From: Ochromonas danica
Taxonomy: Eukaryota > Sar > Chrysophyceae > Chromulinales > Chromulinaceae
Direction of reading: 5' to 3'
NCBI GenBank assembly: GCA_015146655.1
Contig: VKHL01000090.1
Coordinates: forward strand, 1 to 64,000
DNA length: 64,000 bases
The notes beneath the pieces are model-generated. The model searched no databases. It was not told where the DNA came from and worked only from the letters and a program-made list of their open reading frames with translations. How positions within the stretch are numbered: the stretch's first letter is position 1; each line of letters begins with the position of its first letter. Below are positions 19,941-45,462 of the stretch, in pieces. The translations under genes were made by a program, and so were the position numbers.

Positions 19941-20067
19941 CTAATAGTCAAAAATATCCATCCAGGTAGCACATCGTAATGATAAAGCAGAATCAAGCAA
20001 ATGCATACATCGTCGAACATCTGCTAATTCATCATCAGCGTCATCATCATCACTGTTATTATTATTT

Positions 20068-20098
<31 letters not shown>

Positions 20099-21944
20099 CA
20101 TCATCATCATCATTTTCTACCACTACTGGAAGATGTAGTACCATCGAAGAAGTCTTCAGATCATCAAGAGAAGAAGAGTATTGCTGATGATGTTGATAAT
20201 CGTTGTGACGACGATAAGATCGATTATTATTATCATTATTATAGTTATTGTTGTTATTGTTGGGGTTATTGTTATAGGAGGTCAACAAGTCCAAGACAAT
20301 CTTCTCCATACCTGTTCCTTGTAAACGAATAGCATGAAGACGAGGACATTTAGCAAGAATGGTTGATAACATTCCCTCTCCTAATTTAGAACATTTCGTT
20401 AAATCTAATAATTCTAATTTAGGACAATTCTCTACAATATTTCGTACATCATGATCTGTCAAATCACCACATGCTTGACATGTTAATTCTCTTAATTGAC
20501 TACCATACTTAGTAACAGCTGACATAACTCCTGTACGATAGAAATAGACTTGATGAGGTGGTGCTTTAGCAAGGAAGCTAATAGTAGGGAAGAGATGTAA
20601 TGCTTGTAGTGAAGGACATTTATTAACAATACATAAGAGAGAGCTATCATTCATGGTAGGACTAGAGAAGATGAGTGTTTTTAGAGAGGGACCATACATA
20701 GTGACAACTTCTTCAATCACTTCATCAGGTAGATTTTGTGTATCAATCCATAAGGTAGCAGGATGAAGATGATGTAATAGTAAGAAAGCTCGTAAATCTT
20801 CTTCAATATTTTGAATGAAGATAGCTGGCATGGGTAGATGTCGTTGATGACGATAGCTACTAGCAGTAGTACTACTAGTAGTAGTAATAGCACTACCATA
20901 ACATGTCCCATCTCTACCCCCTGCTAGTATCCTTGATGATGACAAGGAGGAGATGAATGATGAGGTTGGTAAGTTTAAATACCCAAAACGTGAACCAATC
21001 TTTAACTTCCTCATTTGTTGAAATCTACCTTCATCTAATAGAAGATTTAACACGGTTAGAGTCACTTCATTACTATGTTCTAAGACTAAAGTATGTAGTC
21101 GAGGTGCTTTCTCAATCATCTCTATAACTTCTTCATTGGTAACATTACAACAATAAAGCTTCACTTCTTCAATTAATGGATTTGCTTCAATAATTTTCAG
21201 TATTGCCTCTGTAGGATACTGTGAAGCTTCATTATTCAGTTTTAAACTGTGAAGGAAGTGACAATATTGACTGATAGCAGTCAATGAATGAATTGAAAGA
21301 TCTTCAATGCCATGTGATAAGGATAGTCTCAATAGTTCTCTTCCATGTTGTTGAACAACTTGTATGACATGTTCATCAGTAATTCCTGATGAAGTTAGAA
21401 TACAATCCATAAAGGGAATAGAAGAGAAAGAAGTGAGAAGAGAAGTGATAGTAGAGGATGAGAGATGAGAAGAATCAATCTCTAATTTCTTTAGATGAAG
21501 AAAGAGAGAAAAGAAAAACTGAAAAGATTCTTCTTTTTCATTTTTTTCTTCATCATTATTATTATCATCTTCTTTTTCAGTTTCTTCAGAATCTTTCACA
21601 AGATGAGGAATGATAGTCTTCTTCTTATGGTACAACTTCAACTCTTGAACTTCTTCAAAGATTTCACAATAAGGACGAAGAAAAGAGACTTCCTTGATAT
21701 CTAATTCCAATGAAAATACACGTATCTTTCTTTTATAAATCCATGGAATATAATGAGCAAGATTATCATGAAGGAATTGAGTGGTGGATAAGGTCATGGA
21801 CATGGAATGAAAGACTTTCTCTAAGAAGATTTGATGTGGTTTAGAACAACAAGCCACTTCTAATCGTGATAGACTTCTTATATCAACAATCCATGTTGAT
21901 AAGATATGTCTACAAAGTTCTACTGTGAGATATTGAAGAAGCAT
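19941..21944 (-). CDS. Leucine-rich repeat protein with N-terminal F-box-like region
   Basis: A single-exon ORF of 667 residues. The start (MLLQYLTVELCRHILSTWIVDIRSLSRLEVACC) resembles a degenerate F-box. Residues about 75-560 hold AMN1-type leucine-rich repeats, for instance LRELTCQACGDLTDHDVRNI, LELLDLTKCSKLGEG and LHAIRLQGTG. The last 100 residues are an Asn/Asp-rich low-complexity tail from GAT/AAT triplets. F-box/LRR proteins select substrates for SCF ubiquitin ligases, but the F-box here is weak, so only the LRR assignment is firm. Confidence 0.72.
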
Positions 21945-38775: not shown

Positions 38776-38936
38776 GATTTGAGTTTAATGAATTATGCAA
38801 TGCTATTCTGCTACTACGTAGTATATTTTCATCTCATCATTTCTGCACAGATTGGATTGGGATTGGATGACAACACAGACGAGGGAGGTGGAAGCCTTTT
38901 GGGGTTTCGGGATTTCCGATTTTCGTTTGTCTTGAA
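38776..38936. promoter_or_regulatory. Narrow divergent intergenic space at left edge of the bacterial-like island
   Basis: Only 161 bp separate the start of the PSxQPS gene from that of the Ulp1-domain ORF. It must hold the host promoter and the left junction of the foreign DNA. No target-site duplication or mobile-element end was recognised. Confidence 0.4.
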
Positions 38937-41639
38937 ATGAAAAATCAGATCTGGGTCAACAAAGAAAATCAATGCGAGATGTCGAAAGGAAAGAAAGGAA
39001 CAGTAAAAATAGACTACACATATTGGTATGATTACAGTCATATAAATTCAATCTTAACTTTATATAGCAATGAAAGGCAAGATTATGAATTTGTAGAAGC
39101 GGCAAGCCAAGATGAATTACATTCTTTACAAAGAGTTAGCGAGGCTTGCACTAAACTGTCCGGTCAACAGGCGTTAAATGCGGTAGTTGTCCCAATTAAT
39201 TTGGGTGTTAATGTGAATGGACAGTATCAAGGTAAACATTGGGTTGCACTGGTAATTAGACGCGATGAAGAAAATAATTTAGTAGCTTTTTATAACGATT
39301 CTCTTGGGACTTCGATGGACTCGTCATTGCCAAAATTAAGACGGATGTTAACAAACCATGGTATTGACAAGATTACTGATTTCAAGAAGGCTCAACAAGT
39401 CAATGGTTATGATTGTGGTCCTTGGACTGTTCTGAATTCAGACAAATTAGCAAGAAAGGGGGAATTACCTAAAGTTACTGAAGCAGATATTAGACAGCAA
39501 AGAGAAGAATTGAGTAATCTCCAATCTAAAAAAGAAGAAGTGTTAGGTAGTGCAGAGCACTCTTCTCCTTCAGTAACTAGAAAGCTACGTTTTCCCGATA
39601 GTAGTAAGGAACAAGCAGTAGTCGTTCCCTGCAGTAATTATGAAATAGAAGGAGACGATTCATCTGATGAAGAAATAGAATCAGAAAACTACCACAAACC
39701 TTTATCAATTAAGCATTATGACTCACTAACAGAGAGTATTACATTTCACATAAAAAATTCAGCTTTACCAGGCAAACAGAAAAGAATTTTAAATAGCATA
39801 GTTGACGATATTAGCGAGATTGATGGTATATATAGTTCAGGAACTAAAATTTCACATGCTGTGAAAGTCAAATCAAACGTAACTAATATACTTAATAATA
39901 AGAAAAAAGATTCTCAAGATAAAAAAACAGTAAAAGAAGCTGTAAGAGTTGCTTACGATGTAAGTAAGAAGAAAGATCTAGACTACTTGAAAGATTATGC
40001 TACCAAAAGAATTTTAGAGTCTCAGCAAGGAAGCAATGTTAATACTATTAAATATGATTTGAAATGGTCATTTGTTTTCCAAGACCTTGGCATTAGATTG
40101 TTAACATCTGATGCTGTAAGAGAGCTATATTTTAAAAATAAGAAAATAATGGGTACTTTCAAAAATCTACCTAGGGATGAAGAAGTACGTGATTGCTTAG
40201 AAAAGGTGGTAAAAAAGACTTTAAAAAAGCATAAAGATAATATTCCCCTCATTTTACAGCATGAAAATTACAAGAAATTACTTACGGCAGTTTTAAAAGA
40301 TAAAAGGGAAATCTTTTATTTAATAAATCCGAATAGCAATTTAAAGGATCTGGTAGATAATCTTATCAAAACTATTAGCCAAGCTGCTGGACAACAATCT
40401 AGTTCAGCGGTAGATGCAATGTTTGATAGACGTTTAACGCTTGAAATAAAAGAATTAAAAGCGATATCAGGATTTGTTACCCCAGCAAGCGCTAAAGTGA
40501 GTGTAAGTCAGAAAGTAAAAAGTGCCGTTAAAGGTCATTTTCAAACGAATTCCAGCCCTTCTCTTGTTGTTGGAGCGCTAGAAATGGTTTACGATAGTTT
40601 AAAGTCACCTAGTCTTTCTGTCAGTGATTTTGTATATAACGCTAGAGAACAACTAAAAGAACTACAAAAAGAGCAAGAAGAAGAGCAAGAAGAAGAAGAA
40701 GAGTTTTCTTGGCGTGAAGGTTTTATTCATCATATGGGAATCGAAATATCAAAACTTCAAAAGAATTTAGTTCGTCCTGTTTTACCATATGCAATAAACT
40801 TATCAACAAGAGATTTTATAACTAATCATCAAGAATATGCAGGCGCAAAAGCATTGTTTTGTTTCATCAGACTAATTCATTGTTCAGCAAAAAGATTCAT
40901 TAAAAATGTAAAATCTATTGAGGATTTTGATGGTGCATTTTTCAGCAGAGGATGGCAATTTGATCCTGATAAAGCTTTAGCAGTTGTTGAAACTCAAACG
41001 CTTTCCAGTCAATTGTCTTTATCTAGTTTGGTTGGTTATTCACATAGTAGTAATTACTCTGAATTATATTCAAAACTAGAAGGTTTCAAGCAGAAAGCAG
41101 CAATTTTAGATATTGACATAGTAAACAGTATTAAATCGTTATTAAAAACTGGAAAGCTTCCTGAAGATTTAGGAATTGGCCAAGCTTTTGAACAGTTTTT
41201 AACAATTTTTACCTATCATTTATTTGGAACTGAAGTAGAAAGACATCCTGCAGCAGCTATACATAATATTATGGCATTAGATTTAGTAAAAACAAAAGGA
41301 TTTAAGTGGGCATTTGAACATTTACCTATGGCTCTTGAAGAAGCAGTTAGCGTTGTTAGAACAATTCAAACAGCATTACATAGAAAATTAAATATCCCGT
41401 ATCATTACGACAAAGCTCTTGCTAATGCTGCTTCTCCTGAATTAAAAGTTGTACAGGATTTTATCGTTTTAGAACATGAATTAGTATCTGCTTGGCTAGA
41501 GTCTAAAGGCTTAGATGTTGAACTAAACGATGACGTATTAACAGAAATAGATGGTTTATGTCAGGAGTTTTATGGGTTGAGTTTAGTCGGGGAAAGTAGC
41601 GACAGCGAGACTGCTAGCGATAGCGATGTGAGTTGTTAG
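38937..41639 (+). CDS. Ulp1/C48-type cysteine protease domain protein of bacterial character
   Basis: An intact intron-free ORF of 900 residues, clearly richer in A/T than neighbouring genes and without their triplet-repeat tracts. The first 165 residues form a Ulp1-like (SUMO/NEDD8/ubiquitin-specific) peptidase domain with the full catalytic set: His101 (QGKHWVALVI), Asp121 (FYNDSLG), Gln154 and Cys160 (NGYDCGPW). The GKHWV and NGYDCGPW forms are like Ulp1 domains of Rickettsiales and Legionella effectors rather than eukaryotic SENPs. The remaining 700 residues are mostly helical with an acidic linker (about residues 580-595) and are unrecognised. The start could also be Met15 at 38979 (MSKGKKG). 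A decayed bacterial-type nuclease ORF follows directly. Likely a lateral transfer from an intracellular bacterium; expression in the alga is unproven. Confidence 0.75.
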   Translation: MKNQIWVNKENQCEMSKGKKGTVKIDYTYWYDYSHINSILTLYSNERQDYEFVEAASQDELHSLQRVSEACTKLSGQQALNAVVVPINLGVNVNGQYQGKHWVALVIRRDEENNLVAFYNDSLGTSMDSSLPKLRRMLTNHGIDKITDFKKAQQVNGYDCGPWTVLNSDKLARKGELPKVTEADIRQQREELSNLQSKKEEVLGSAEHSSPSVTRKLRFPDSSKEQAVVVPCSNYEIEGDDSSDEEIESENYHKPLSIKHYDSLTESITFHIKNSALPGKQKRILNSIVDDISEIDGIYSSGTKISHAVKVKSNVTNILNNKKKDSQDKKTVKEAVRVAYDVSKKKDLDYLKDYATKRILESQQGSNVNTIKYDLKWSFVFQDLGIRLLTSDAVRELYFKNKKIMGTFKNLPRDEEVRDCLEKVVKKTLKKHKDNIPLILQHENYKKLLTAVLKDKREIFYLINPNSNLKDLVDNLIKTISQAAGQQSSSAVDAMFDRRLTLEIKELKAISGFVTPASAKVSVSQKVKSAVKGHFQTNSSPSLVVGALEMVYDSLKSPSLSVSDFVYNAREQLKELQKEQEEEQEEEEEFSWREGFIHHMGIEISKLQKNLVRPVLPYAINLSTRDFITNHQEYAGAKALFCFIRLIHCSAKRFIKNVKSIEDFDGAFFSRGWQFDPDKALAVVETQTLSSQLSLSSLVGYSHSSNYSELYSKLEGFKQKAAILDIDIVNSIKSLLKTGKLPEDLGIGQAFEQFLTIFTYHLFGTEVERHPAAAIHNIMALDLVKTKGFKWAFEHLPMALEEAVSVVRTIQTALHRKLNIPYHYDKALANAASPELKVVQDFIVLEHELVSAWLESKGLDVELNDDVLTEIDGLCQEFYGLSLVGESSDSETASDSDVSC

Positions 41640-41759
41640 GTAAGAAGTCTTCACGGGGAAATTATCCAATAAGCAATTGGATAATTTCGGATGATAATAA
41701 GGTAGACTAAGCGATTCAAAGGTGAAGAACAAGATCGTATGATACCAAATGGGACTGTA

Positions 41760-42095
41760 ATAAAAGATATTAAGGTTTGATATCACGAGCAAAGAATAAA
41801 GTAACATTCAATACTAATGCAGAAATGACATACTTATATTGGAATATAGGACAGAGAATCACTAAAGGAGTAATGAAAGCGGATAGAGCAGAATATGGAC
41901 TGCAGGTTATTAAAAGGCTCGCGTTCGTGTGTGAGAAGTACAGTATGTGGAGCAAGTCTTCTCCTTTGGTGTTTATCAGTCGAATATGTTCGAGGATTTT
42001 CTTATTCTGTACTGATAAGAATGGTGCGCTTTTAGTTTTTATGAGTGTTTTCCTGATAAACAAATTGTTACTACAGTATTAATTAAAATTAATCA
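41760..42095 (+). pseudogene. YhcG/DUF1016-family nuclease fragment, frameshifted
   Basis: The first open stretch reads RAKNKVTFNTNAEMTYLYWN then IGQRITKGVMKADRAEYGLQ, the hallmark N-terminal region of the bacterial YhcG (DUF1016, PDDEXK-type) family. After about 41925 the homology moves to another frame (EYVRGFSYSVLIRMVRF), and then shifts again (CFPDKQIVTTV) before it fades. At least two frame changes and a missing nuclease domain make it a pseudogene. The family is essentially bacterial, so it supports a bacterial source for the island. Confidence 0.75.
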
Positions 42096-42150
42096 ATAGT
42101 TTACACTTTCGCTAACAATACCATATACAACAAGAAGCGAGCAGTAAACT

Positions 42151-42281
42151 ACTACTAGATAGTATATATAGCCGTGGGTTCAAAGAAGAGAAAGAAGCCA
42201 ATTATTTATTTACAGTGGATAAAGATGGAAATATGAAAAATACAGCATTGTACTGTAAAGCAGAAATCAGTATTTGTTGAT
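42151..42281 (+). pseudogene. Short open fragment at right edge of the island
   Basis: An open frame without a start (DSIYSRGFKEEKEANYLFTV...) ends at a TGA four bases before the stop codon of the TTLL gene on the other strand. Its AT-rich composition resembles the preceding foreign ORFs. No family is recognised. It may be the remnant of a third bacterial gene. Confidence 0.3.
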
Positions 42282-42284
42282 CAA

Positions 42285-45200
42285 CTATCGCTGGAGTTGC
42301 TGAGATTTCATTCGCTTGTATTCAGCCAAGTAGAGTTGTCGATATTGACTATATGCATCAGCTACCGTATTTATCACATAATTACTTTCCTGGACATTAT
42401 GTTCTGTCTCTTCAATATCACTACTTTCCTGATTGTTGTAATCAGAATAACCACGACTATTATCCTTCTTATTACTATTTGCACTTTCTTCTTCTCTCAT
42501 CATCCATATACCATCATCATGTATGCTATCTTGAGATCTACTAGTATACTGTGTATTATCAACATCATTATTATCTCTGTAAAAGACAAATAAGGAATCA
42601 TTATTACTTTCATTTCCACTTTCACTATCATCACCTTCTTCTTCACCTTCCTCTCTGCCCACACCACCACCAACTTCTTCACCAAAAGAAGTATTATGTC
42701 GAAGAATATTAGCCATGGTCATAGATAATGTCTCATCTTTCATCTCTTCATTTTGACCTTGAGGAAGAATAAAATGTTTCATTCGTGTCTGACTATGAGG
42801 TGTATACTTAGGTTGATTAGCCATTGGTCGTTGTGGGGAGAAGGTCATTTGACGCTGTTGCTGGTCTTGCTTTTGTTGTTGTTGCTGTGTTAGCAGTTTG
42901 AGGTCATCCAATGAAGGTGTAGCAAGAGGAAAGACAGGCGAGGCATAGGATCTCATCTTTTCAATCGAATCAACAGAAACAGCTAACCGAGCATCTGACT
43001 GCAAGTGTTCTACAAACTGTTGACCAATCTTTGCTGTGTTATTATGACGTGGATATAATAGTGACTCTTGTTCTTGCCAATATCTTCTTGTCATCATTAA
43101 CTCTCGTTGTTGTATTTGTTCAAGATTTCCTTGTATTTCTTGTACATATCGTTTATTTAAAGAGTTGTAATATTCACAGAAATCAAAACTCGGTGGTATA
43201 GAAGCTTCAGTTAGTAGTCTATTCTTATTGACTTCACTGAAACTATTTGCTTCCTCATATCGCCTGCTGCTGCTGCTTGGACTGTCTCTACTATCAACTT
43301 TAGCATTAGAACTACCATCTATACAAGGCAGTGGTATTTGTGATGATGATGGTTCTTTCATACTACTAGTAGTTTGATGATCTATAGGAGTATGATCTGT
43401 TGTTATCTTGTCTTCTCTCTCTTCTACTGTACTACAGCTAAGCATAGACTGAGAGATAATAACAGGCAGCAGCACGCCCGAGTCAATGTCAACACTTTTA
43501 TTCTCCATGAAGGAACCAGAAGCACCGATTGATTGTTCTAGTTGATGATGATTACCACCTGATATCACTGAACGATGATAGAATGGAAGGGAGAGAAGGT
43601 GACTGTCATTGTCATTATCATTGTCATTATCCATGAGAATGGTAGTATTCTTTTTGTTTTTCTTCTTCTTGTTTTTGTTCGTCCTGTTGTTTGATTTCTG
43701 TTTTACCATCTGGTCATGGTAATAATCACAAATATAATCTTCATCCTCTAAACCATTTGCTACAAGAAACTCTTCATAAGAAGGTATAACACGTGTATTG
43801 CTATTCTGATTGAATGTTCGGGTTGTTGATGGTAGTAGTAACTGTCCTGAAGGAGGAAGATACTCTTCTATGAGGTGTAAGAGATACTGGTAGAAGGTTT
43901 GCCTATCAGCAGTTGGTTGATTAGCATAAACGTCTGCTGGATAGATTAGATCATAGTTCCCCAAAGCATCACTCTCATTGGCAAGATATGCTGACCAATA
44001 AGGGTCTATGTCTACCTTTTCCTCCTCCCCCGTTCTTCTTCTTCCCTTCTTGGTGGTCTTAGCCTGCTGACTCTGGACATAAGCCTTATACCTTCTTCGA
44101 AGATCATCTGATAAGACATCTCCATATAGTCTCATCTGTGTATTGATTGTAGAGGATAGTGTCTCTTTCTCCTTTTCTTCTTGATCAACATGGAGTAGAT
44201 GGAAAGTATCAATCATCAAACCTAGCTTGACTTGACTATCAAGTGATGACTGTGTAGAGAAAGAAGGCATATGATTTACTTCAAGTAAGATAGGTCGATA
44301 CTTGTCCGTGAGAATGATATCAAAACCAAGTAACTAGAACATCAACAAGATAACGATCAGTCTCTGTGATGATGAACAACGGTAAGTCATATACAGCAAT
44401 CTATTGTCTCACCTCAAAGCAGGTAAATGGACTCTTATTCTGTCCACCTAACTTACAATCTTGCATTGCACGACGTAAATTTCTCAAATTGGATAGAATA
44501 GTCTTGACAGCAAGATGACTAATCTCTGCGAATACCTGGTCATAGGAGACTCCTTTGGACTGTAGATAGTGTCGTAGCCAGGCCAATGATCGTTTAGAGG
44601 CAAACCTCTCATCATTATCATCATCTTCTTCTTCCTGTGACGACTCGTTAGCATTCCCTTTACGATCAATAGGTCTTTGTTGGTTATTATTATTATTCGG
44701 TACAAAAGCAGTATTATGTTTGTTAATCGAGTAATTTGTAAGATGCATGAAAGAGTTCTCGATATTCTCTGCTGTTGGTTTCGTATAAGGAGCTGTGCAG
44801 AAGCGACATAATCCTTCACGATAGATATAAATCCTTGGAGGATCACATGATGTGACAAGGACATAAATCCGAATGTCGAACTTGTATCCATCCACTATCA
44901 GCGGGTTAGCGAGGTAGGGCTGCACAATGTAACTTTCCAATGAAGATGAAAATAGATCAGTCGGATTCAAAGCAAGATGAATACCTCTTCCTTGAGCACC
45001 ACCAGCTGGCTTTAGAATGACACATCGTTTGCCTTTCCCCTGTCGCAGGTAGTTTGCTACCAATTCATAGTCTTGAGGCAAGTACCACGTGCATGGGGTG
45101 AAGTTGTAATCATGAGGACACAAGGATCTCATTCTTTGGATTGTTCGTGCTAATTTGTCTTTCCGGTAGAGCTCAACCATACCAGGGAAGTGATTGACTC

Positions 45201-45462
45201 GCTGGTAGGACTTCATCTCACGCACTACTCTGTCAACCCCTTGGCCAGCATCGATCCAGGCGATATCCCACCCGCCATCGCCTATCACCTGCTTCTTGTT
45301 GGACGTCTTCCAGTTTAGAACATTCGCAGCACAGGTAATGACTCCATATTTGGTGTGAGCAATGTTGACCACAATGTCTGCTTTGCTTTTACGATCTTTT
45401 GGTAGCCTTCTGATGCGAGAGGGGATTCCTTCCTGTGCATCATCACTAGAAGTACTATTCAT
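42285..45462 (-). CDS. Tubulin tyrosine ligase-like (polyglutamylase-type) protein, two exons
   Basis: Exons 44413-45462 and 42285-44333 (79-bp intron) give 1032 residues. TTLL enzymes add glutamate chains to tubulin, mainly in flagellar axonemes. The ATP-grasp TTL domain occupies about residues 30-390: WDIAWIDAGQGVDRVVREM, NHFPGMVELYRKDKL, the glycine-rich GGAQGRGIHLA, KFDIRIYVLVTSCDPPRIYI, the motif HLTNYSINKHN, and LLGFDIILTDKYRPILLEVN completed across the intron. This order is that of the TTLL4/5/6 glutamylase group. The C-terminal 600 residues are low-complexity with Gln and acidic tracts. The stop codon lies only a few bases from the bacterial-like island, so the gene's 3' UTR must use foreign sequence or the tail has been cut. 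Confidence 0.88.

Follow-up and report, generated by a model that had tools for sequence, protein, structure and literature searches.

A modular deubiquitinase-like gene of Rickettsiales type, probably captured into the nuclear genome of Ochromonas danica

One open reading frame (ORF) in the genome assembly of the chrysophyte Ochromonas danica is probably a modular effector gene of Rickettsiales that now resides in the nuclear genome with fragments of the adjacent bacterial DNA. It lies at positions 38937-41639 on the forward strand of the window, which covers the initial 64 kb of contig VKHL01000090.1 (C90; 115,338 bp) of assembly GCA_015146655.1 (31.2 Mb, 337 contigs), and is called the C90 ORF below. 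The original prediction, made from the letters alone, described an intron-free, AT-rich frame of 900 codons with a complete His-Asp-Gln-Cys set of a Ulp1 protease, placed among host genes beside a decayed bacterial ORF. The frame is exact: a single exon runs from ATG to TAG, encodes 900 amino acids (aa) and has no internal stops, while the remaining five frames contain 43-108 stops. When the region 38901-42300 was shuffled 200 times, no open frame exceeded 168 codons, and thus the C90 ORF is not due to chance.

The N-terminal part of the protein is similar to RickCE_cat (5.6e-15, 56 bits with a curated Pfam cut-off of 27) and to Peptidase_C48 (3.3e-6). The predicted catalytic set is indeed complete, with H101, D121, Q154 and C160, and is accompanied by W102. 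The His, Trp, Gln and Cys are conserved across all tabulated bacterial domain rows; Asp121 is not among the tabulated identity columns, and its invariance was read from the alignments. A Trp following the catalytic His marks proteases as opposed to acetyltransferases in the CE clan, according to PMC7214410, and therefore W102 speaks for a protease. The closest PDB match by sequence is OtDUB (6ups, 1.9e-10). OtDUB chains are also the first three Foldseek matches (1.2e-8 to 4.4e-8; template modelling score 0.59-0.63 by query length) of an AlphaFold2 model of aa 21-220, which was built on a nine-row alignment and is of moderate confidence (mean predicted local distance difference test, pLDDT, 66.6). 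The Pfam cut-off and the catalytic residues assign the C90 ORF to the RickCE-like deubiquitinases (DUBs) of the CE clan (C48). The domain is modelled, with the same moderate confidence, as a Ulp1 fold, and deubiquitinase activity is likely.

The 700 residues following the domain had been described as unrecognised. However, about 520 of them belong to a helical module common to Rickettsiales proteins. The search with the whole protein produced matches in 90 of 343 Rickettsiales genomes, which is a lower bound since few candidates were scored per genome. Matches to the C-terminal part alone were found in genomes G005 (aa 326-883, 6.5e-24), G129 (aa 626-881, 2.5e-17) and G188 (aa 603-898, 2.2e-12), and BLASTP of the C90 protein against module proteins gave 2e-27 (L021) and 1e-21 (L022). 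The alignment of the module core (A6; 11 rows, one of them the C90 ORF itself) contains the motif LFGTExxRxP, with 12 invariant columns around it. The core profile matches 38 of the 343 Rickettsiales genomes and none of 385 genomes sampled across Alphaproteobacteria; an empty result by itself would show nothing, but the same profile is positive in Rickettsiales. By its sequence the C90 protein is placed in this Rickettsiales module family.

The module has no name in the databases searched. No match over the Pfam cut-off was found in the C-terminal part of the C90 protein (below the cut-off are betaPIX_CC, 0.0063, and YBD, 0.067), and none in NCBIfam or PHROG. Scans of rickettsialean module proteins, six complete ones and two pieces, gave no Pfam name for the module, and those of the six complete ones gave no NCBIfam name either. 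No PDB chain matched the core profile, and in the plasmid collection neither the C-terminal part (E up to 1) nor L021 had a match. An identity of the C-terminal part with Sca4/SWA (120_Rick_ant, PF12574) was considered and rejected: PF12574 has no match in the C90 ORF. It occurs in 67 of the 343 genomes, and in the 24 genomes that match both PF12574 and the module a comparison by hand found no shared ORF.

In Rickettsiales the module occurs alone, behind other N-termini, or before the RickCE domain. The last arrangement is found in G080 (L046), and in G005 and G188 the module follows a short start containing an acidic patch. A rickettsialean protein of 971 residues in G129 (L022:754-3666) carries it behind a different N-terminus of more than 200 residues without a Pfam match. 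In G161, whose Ulp1 domain is the closest to that of the C90 ORF, the same protein has a different C-terminus, and a weaker module match (1.6e-18) lies in a separate ORF. Residues 323-821 of this G161 DUB protein (L048:111-3113) are matched at 37% identity by a relative encoded on a plasmid of Candidatus Megaera polyxenophila (AP017965.1:97196-98662); to judge from the similarity, this is a further common part without a name.

Between the protease and the module the C90 protein contains the acidic-serine patch DDSSDEE, presumably similar to phosphorylatable acidic or SUMO-interaction-like patches. The pattern D-[DES]-S-[STD]-[DES]-E, chosen post hoc after the sequences had been seen, precedes the module in the C90 ORF and in six ORFs from Rickettsiales, 7 of the 14 complete or partial module ORFs scanned. 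It is absent from the other seven, of which L047 has a close variant, and it is also present in the G161 DUB protein. In 1000 shuffles per protein the pattern reappears 0-6 times.

The case for a Rickettsiales origin is built on the G161 domain, the module and the bacterial neighbour described below, and not on the domain tree. The G161 domain is 52% identical to that of the C90 ORF (49% in one comparison, 55% over the tree columns). In the tree of 31 rows the C90 ORF falls within a 20-row set that includes the Rickettsiales rows (support 87/88), G161 is the nearest by path, and the other ULP genes of the host stand apart. The tree covers 31 of 33 domain rows, two short pieces of L057 being excluded and the near-copies L010, L019, L025 and L027 left out; the rows come from the C90 ORF and 31 chosen loci, and of the 90 matching Rickettsiales genomes those with the best 20 matches supplied loci, along with 9 stretches taken by place. 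Capture from Rickettsiales is well supported by these comparisons, and the intracellular bacterium assumed as the donor in the original prediction can thus be narrowed to this order.

The scan of genome contigs with the catalytic domains produced eight loci, seven rhizobial and one from Megaira; the same scan with module copies gave no match. RickCE-type domains were also seen on Megaera plasmids (L007, L008, L010), in annotated autotransporter-domain proteins near conjugation (Tra) genes. A viral or phage origin was rejected: the phage collection gave no match to the protein, and no relative was confirmed by two pattern scans of viral contigs; these scans are weak and only suggestive.

A second copy of the module was found on contig C245 (27.4 kb), where the equivalents of aa 371-491 and aa 513-887 are at positions 154-513 (50% identity) and 606-1757 (54%). 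The two pieces are in different frames, the break being at an A-run between them. Farther into C245 there are host-type ORFs, as read by eye. RickCE has a single match in the assembly, the C90 ORF. At positions 1-150 of C245 (L004), in the place of the protease, a 69-base direct repeat in two copies, the second incomplete, is in frame with the first module piece. It was noticed by eye and is absent from the repeat-finder output; the contig ends within these repeats, where the assembly may have collapsed. Over 491 codons the C90 and C245 copies have 52.7% identical residues, dN 0.365 and dS 1.18 (nonsynonymous and synonymous divergence, Nei-Gojobori), and thus dN/dS of about 0.31; 41% of four-fold sites are identical, as compared to 33% expected from composition. 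These values indicate that the copies have been constrained across their combined separate history. The ratio does not assign the constraint to the host or the bacterial phase, and in the case of two transfers it could be bacterial.

The surroundings of the C90 ORF are of the host type, as claimed originally. The divergent PT/PS-repeat ORF and the C90 ORF have their start codons 161 bp apart, and other eukaryotic-type ORFs near the insert encode, besides the tubulin-tyrosine ligase-family protein, an ATP_bind_1 protein, a class II tRNA synthetase with a TGS domain and an SLX1-type GIY-YIG protein. The decayed bacterial neighbour was identified as a remnant of a DUF1016_N gene. It is the only DUF1016_N match found in the assembly, and a similar stretch occurs in 128 plasmid records; the gene may have been broken before the transfer, in the donor. 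An open piece downstream is possibly another bacterial remnant, for which no match was found, the plasmid search with its 50 residues included; the plasmid search with the DNA downstream of the C90 ORF was also empty. The region 38.5-42.6 kb contains only scattered short repeats, none of them framing the insert, and counts of promoter-like and terminator-like signals around the insert are at the shuffled level.

The search for bacterial-type small-subunit rRNA, with 5 of 276 candidates scored, found one match, on the 39-kb contig C214. It is mitochondrial, and nad3, rps12, rps7, cox3 and atp6 were read from the translations of this contig. Among the candidates scored there was neither a symbiont 16S rRNA nor a plastid one, and VirB4 was not found in the assembly (the control was positive in Caulobacter). 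Thus the assembly shows no sign of a symbiont genome. The coordinates of all features are given in Table 1.

Table 1. Features of the C90 ORF and its surroundings (positions in the window)
Feature	Position	Strand	Basis
Modular deubiquitinase-like effector gene, Rickettsiales-type, intact, 900 codons	38937..41639	+	Pfam, homologue search, shuffling
Ulp1/C48 (RickCE-type) catalytic domain, aa 29-180	39021..39476	+	Pfam, PDB sequence, alignment, Foldseek
Catalytic His101 codon, Trp102 next	39237..39239	+	alignment
Catalytic Asp121 codon	39297..39299	+	invariant in two alignments
Gln154 codon, oxyanion hole	39396..39398	+	alignment
Cys160 codon, nucleophile	39414..39416	+	alignment
Acidic-serine patch DDSSDEE, aa 240-246, of the type found before the module in six Rickettsiales ORFs	39654..39674	+	pattern scan
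Helical C-terminal module, aa 371-887, common to Rickettsiales proteins; also on C245	40047..41597	+	homologue search, alignment
Module core (A6), motif LFGTExxRxP	40773..41585	+	alignment, profile
Perfect 13-bp hairpin, 18 bases past the stop codon; terminator-like, without a T tail	41658..41688	+	
DUF1016_N (PDDEXK nuclease) bacterial gene remnant, 49 residues	41777..41923	+	Pfam, 8.6e-10
Open piece, 50 codons	42128..42277	+	no match found
PT/PS-repeat protein ORF of the host, divergent from the C90 ORF	32905..38775	-	ORF list, domain scan
Host-type ORF of 661 aa without a Pfam family above the cut-off; its stop codon borders the insert	42285..44270	-	ORF list, Pfam
Host tubulin-tyrosine ligase-family ORF	44401..45462	-	Pfam, 1.7e-56

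Two other features of the window were observed. The segment 13001-14000, with GC skew 0.81, AT skew -0.75 and long open frames on both strands, is probably a G/T-rich low-complexity stretch. An ADP-ribosylglycohydrolase ORF (879-2138, 1.7e-36) lies close to the start of the contig.

Several observations weigh against the capture of a Rickettsiales gene. Long branches, that of the C90 ORF included, meet in the domain tree, and the approximately unbiased test on 151 columns does not reject a grouping of the C90 ORF with the host ULPs (p 0.147, or p 0.36 for L054 alone), nor one with the rhizobial rows (p 0.253). Rickettsiales domains other than G161 are 24-35% identical to the C90 domain, which overlaps both the 21-29% of the rhizobial ones and the range of the other host ULPs given below. 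The AT-richness, although real (33.7% GC), is no diagnostic feature: another ORF of this contig, 19941-21944, has equal GC and equal GC at third codon positions (GC3), and the same holds for some host-contig ORFs. The codon sets used below are small, four homologues for Rickettsiales and ten long host-contig ORFs for the host. The single-sequence fold of the module is unusable (pLDDT 37.2). Finally, the C245 copy adjoins a contig end, its frame is broken, and the protease is absent from its assembled portion. The first of these features would also suit an assembly chimera or contamination, with a symbiont insert misjoined to host contigs. Nevertheless, such an artefact is very unlikely, because a diverged copy lies on another contig with host-type ORFs and neither symbiont 16S rRNA nor VirB4 was found; besides, host-type genes flank the insert on both sides within one 115-kb contig. 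It is also highly improbable that the C90 ORF is a native eukaryotic ULP/SENP gene of bacterial appearance. The host does have four other C48 loci, and the tree, as noted, does not reject their grouping with the C90 ORF. However, these ULPs are 15-26% identical to the C90 domain over 46-109 columns (47% in one 17-column piece), as opposed to 52% for G161; the module occurs in Rickettsiales and nowhere else among the sets searched, and the DUF1016 remnant alongside is bacterial. Two of the host loci, L055 and L056, are large ORFs on the short contigs C300 and C307. Their C48 domains have diverged, in contrast to the stronger C48 match on C21, and the two ORFs possibly encode transposon-type or lineage-specific proteases.

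If the gene was captured, the time and the number of transfers are to be considered. A recent neutral insertion, whereby symbiont DNA in the nucleus has no host function and the frame is open for lack of time, falls somewhat short of an even chance. It agrees with the broken DUF1016 gene and with the codon usage of the C90 ORF, which is still Rickettsiales-like (log-likelihood per codon -0.954 with the Rickettsiales set vs -1.053 with the host set). In a model that counts only point changes to stop codons, the frame survives neutrally with P 0.26-0.07 at 0.01-0.02 substitutions per site; however, P decreases to 0.0012 at 0.05 substitutions per site and, if the copies split in the host, to about 5e-35 at 0.59. 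The diverged second copy also speaks against a short neutral stay, as it implies either long constraint within the host or another transfer, and its codon usage is about even (-1.078 with the Rickettsiales set vs -1.088 with the host set), which fits a longer residence in the host without proving it. Two independent transfers from different Rickettsiales, instead of a single transfer followed by duplication in the host, would be compatible with the capture favoured here, and we regard them as a serious option, with the balance tilting slightly the other way. The blastn homology between the two loci is confined to the gene, the flanks having none, and GC3 differs, being 0.274 in the C245 copy and 0.211 in the C90 ORF (0.189 in aa 371-900). 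On the other hand, the two modules group together at 100/100 with 62% core identity, compared with 21-31% for the other rows, although the sampling may lack closer relatives from bacteria. With two transfers, it is possible that the C90 ORF stayed neutrally for no more than about 0.02 substitutions per site (P 0.07). The original claim of selection is borne out in part, by the constraint between the copies; with two transfers, however, this constraint may have been bacterial, and the DUF1016 gene perhaps broke in the donor. Retention of the C90 ORF in the host by selection is plausible but unproven.

Under the capture from Rickettsiales, an effector-type gene would have entered the nuclear genome along with bits of adjoining bacterial DNA. 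We infer the activity, substrate and expression of the C90 gene, its secretion in the donor and its selective retention in the host along the following lines. The protein would consist of an N-terminal OtDUB/RickCE-type cysteine protease of the Ulp1 fold, the acidic-serine patch and the long helical C-terminal module. By analogy with the family, His101 and Asp121 would activate Cys160, Gln154 would be part of the oxyanion hole, and the likely substrate would be the C-terminal bond of ubiquitin, perhaps of NEDD8, on host proteins. Extracts of PMC7214410 and PMC4961225 report that bacterial CE-clan DUBs cut ubiquitin, many of them favouring K63 chains, and that RickCE and OtDUB are weak on NEDD8. 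The module and the patch may direct the protease to its target. Transcription could start from a promoter common with the divergent host gene, and a protein made by the host would not need secretion. It could trim ubiquitin signals of the host or disturb the effectors of related symbionts.

One further scenario, possible but rather doubtful, is an ancient capture followed by duplication, with both forms under purifying selection: a protein with the DUB and the module, and a module relative in which a repeat replaces the protease, the family acting as a ubiquitin editor encoded by the host or as a decoy that blunts infection. If true, the decoy would bind whatever target the effectors of present-day Rickettsiales bind, a kind of nuclear "vaccination" by a stolen effector. 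Transfer of genes from Rickettsiales to hosts is already known; a retained, testable effector is, in our opinion rather than by any count, unusual. Among the literature matches listed there was no description of the C90 gene or of the module in a eukaryotic genome. Whether a symbiont weapon became a host gene is made a testable question by the intact gene, whose active site can be read, by its decayed neighbour and by the diverged copy. Independently of the host, the Rickettsiales module without a Pfam or NCBIfam name, found with DUB domains and with other N-termini, is a candidate effector targeting unit.

The closest known system is OtDUB (OTT_1962) of Orientia tsutsugamushi, the best PDB match to the C90 domain by both sequence and fold. 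As in the C90 protein, a Ulp1-fold DUB with conserved His, Trp, Asp and Cys is at the N-terminus of a large Rickettsiales protein (PMC7214410, extract). Further regions of OtDUB include ubiquitin-binding, guanine nucleotide exchange factor and adaptor-binding ones (PMC11077975, extract); the C90 gene differs by residing in a eukaryotic genome. RickCE of Rickettsia bellii (PF22179) belongs to the same catalytic domain family and cuts ubiquitin and, to a lesser extent, NEDD8. Its crystallised domain comprises residues 420-691 and includes a VR-2 insertion some 75 residues long (PMC4961225, extract), whereas the C90 domain is N-terminal and has about 150 residues, a length that makes a VR-2-like arm unlikely.

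In its general type the C90 protein resembles the domain-shuffled modular effectors of Rickettsiales, REM, cREM and SWAMP (PMC11077975). Its module differs from the 120_Rick_ant (Sca4/SWA) domain of such effectors, with which it shares no ORF in the genomes that match both. The same source mentions a widespread unannotated C-terminal domain in Rickettsia, which might be our module. Gene transfer linked to Rickettsiales endosymbionts of stramenopile algae is described for eustigmatophytes (PMC6092422, extract). Finally, nuclear copies of symbiont effector genes, as here, exist in Liriomyza sativae, whose genome carries a Wolbachia cif insert; the host is an insect, the symbiont Wolbachia, and the genes are different. 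The authors hypothesise (PMC12092117, abstract) that the host thereby suppresses the action of the symbiont, and this is a precedent for the idea that the C90 protein may interfere with symbiont effectors.

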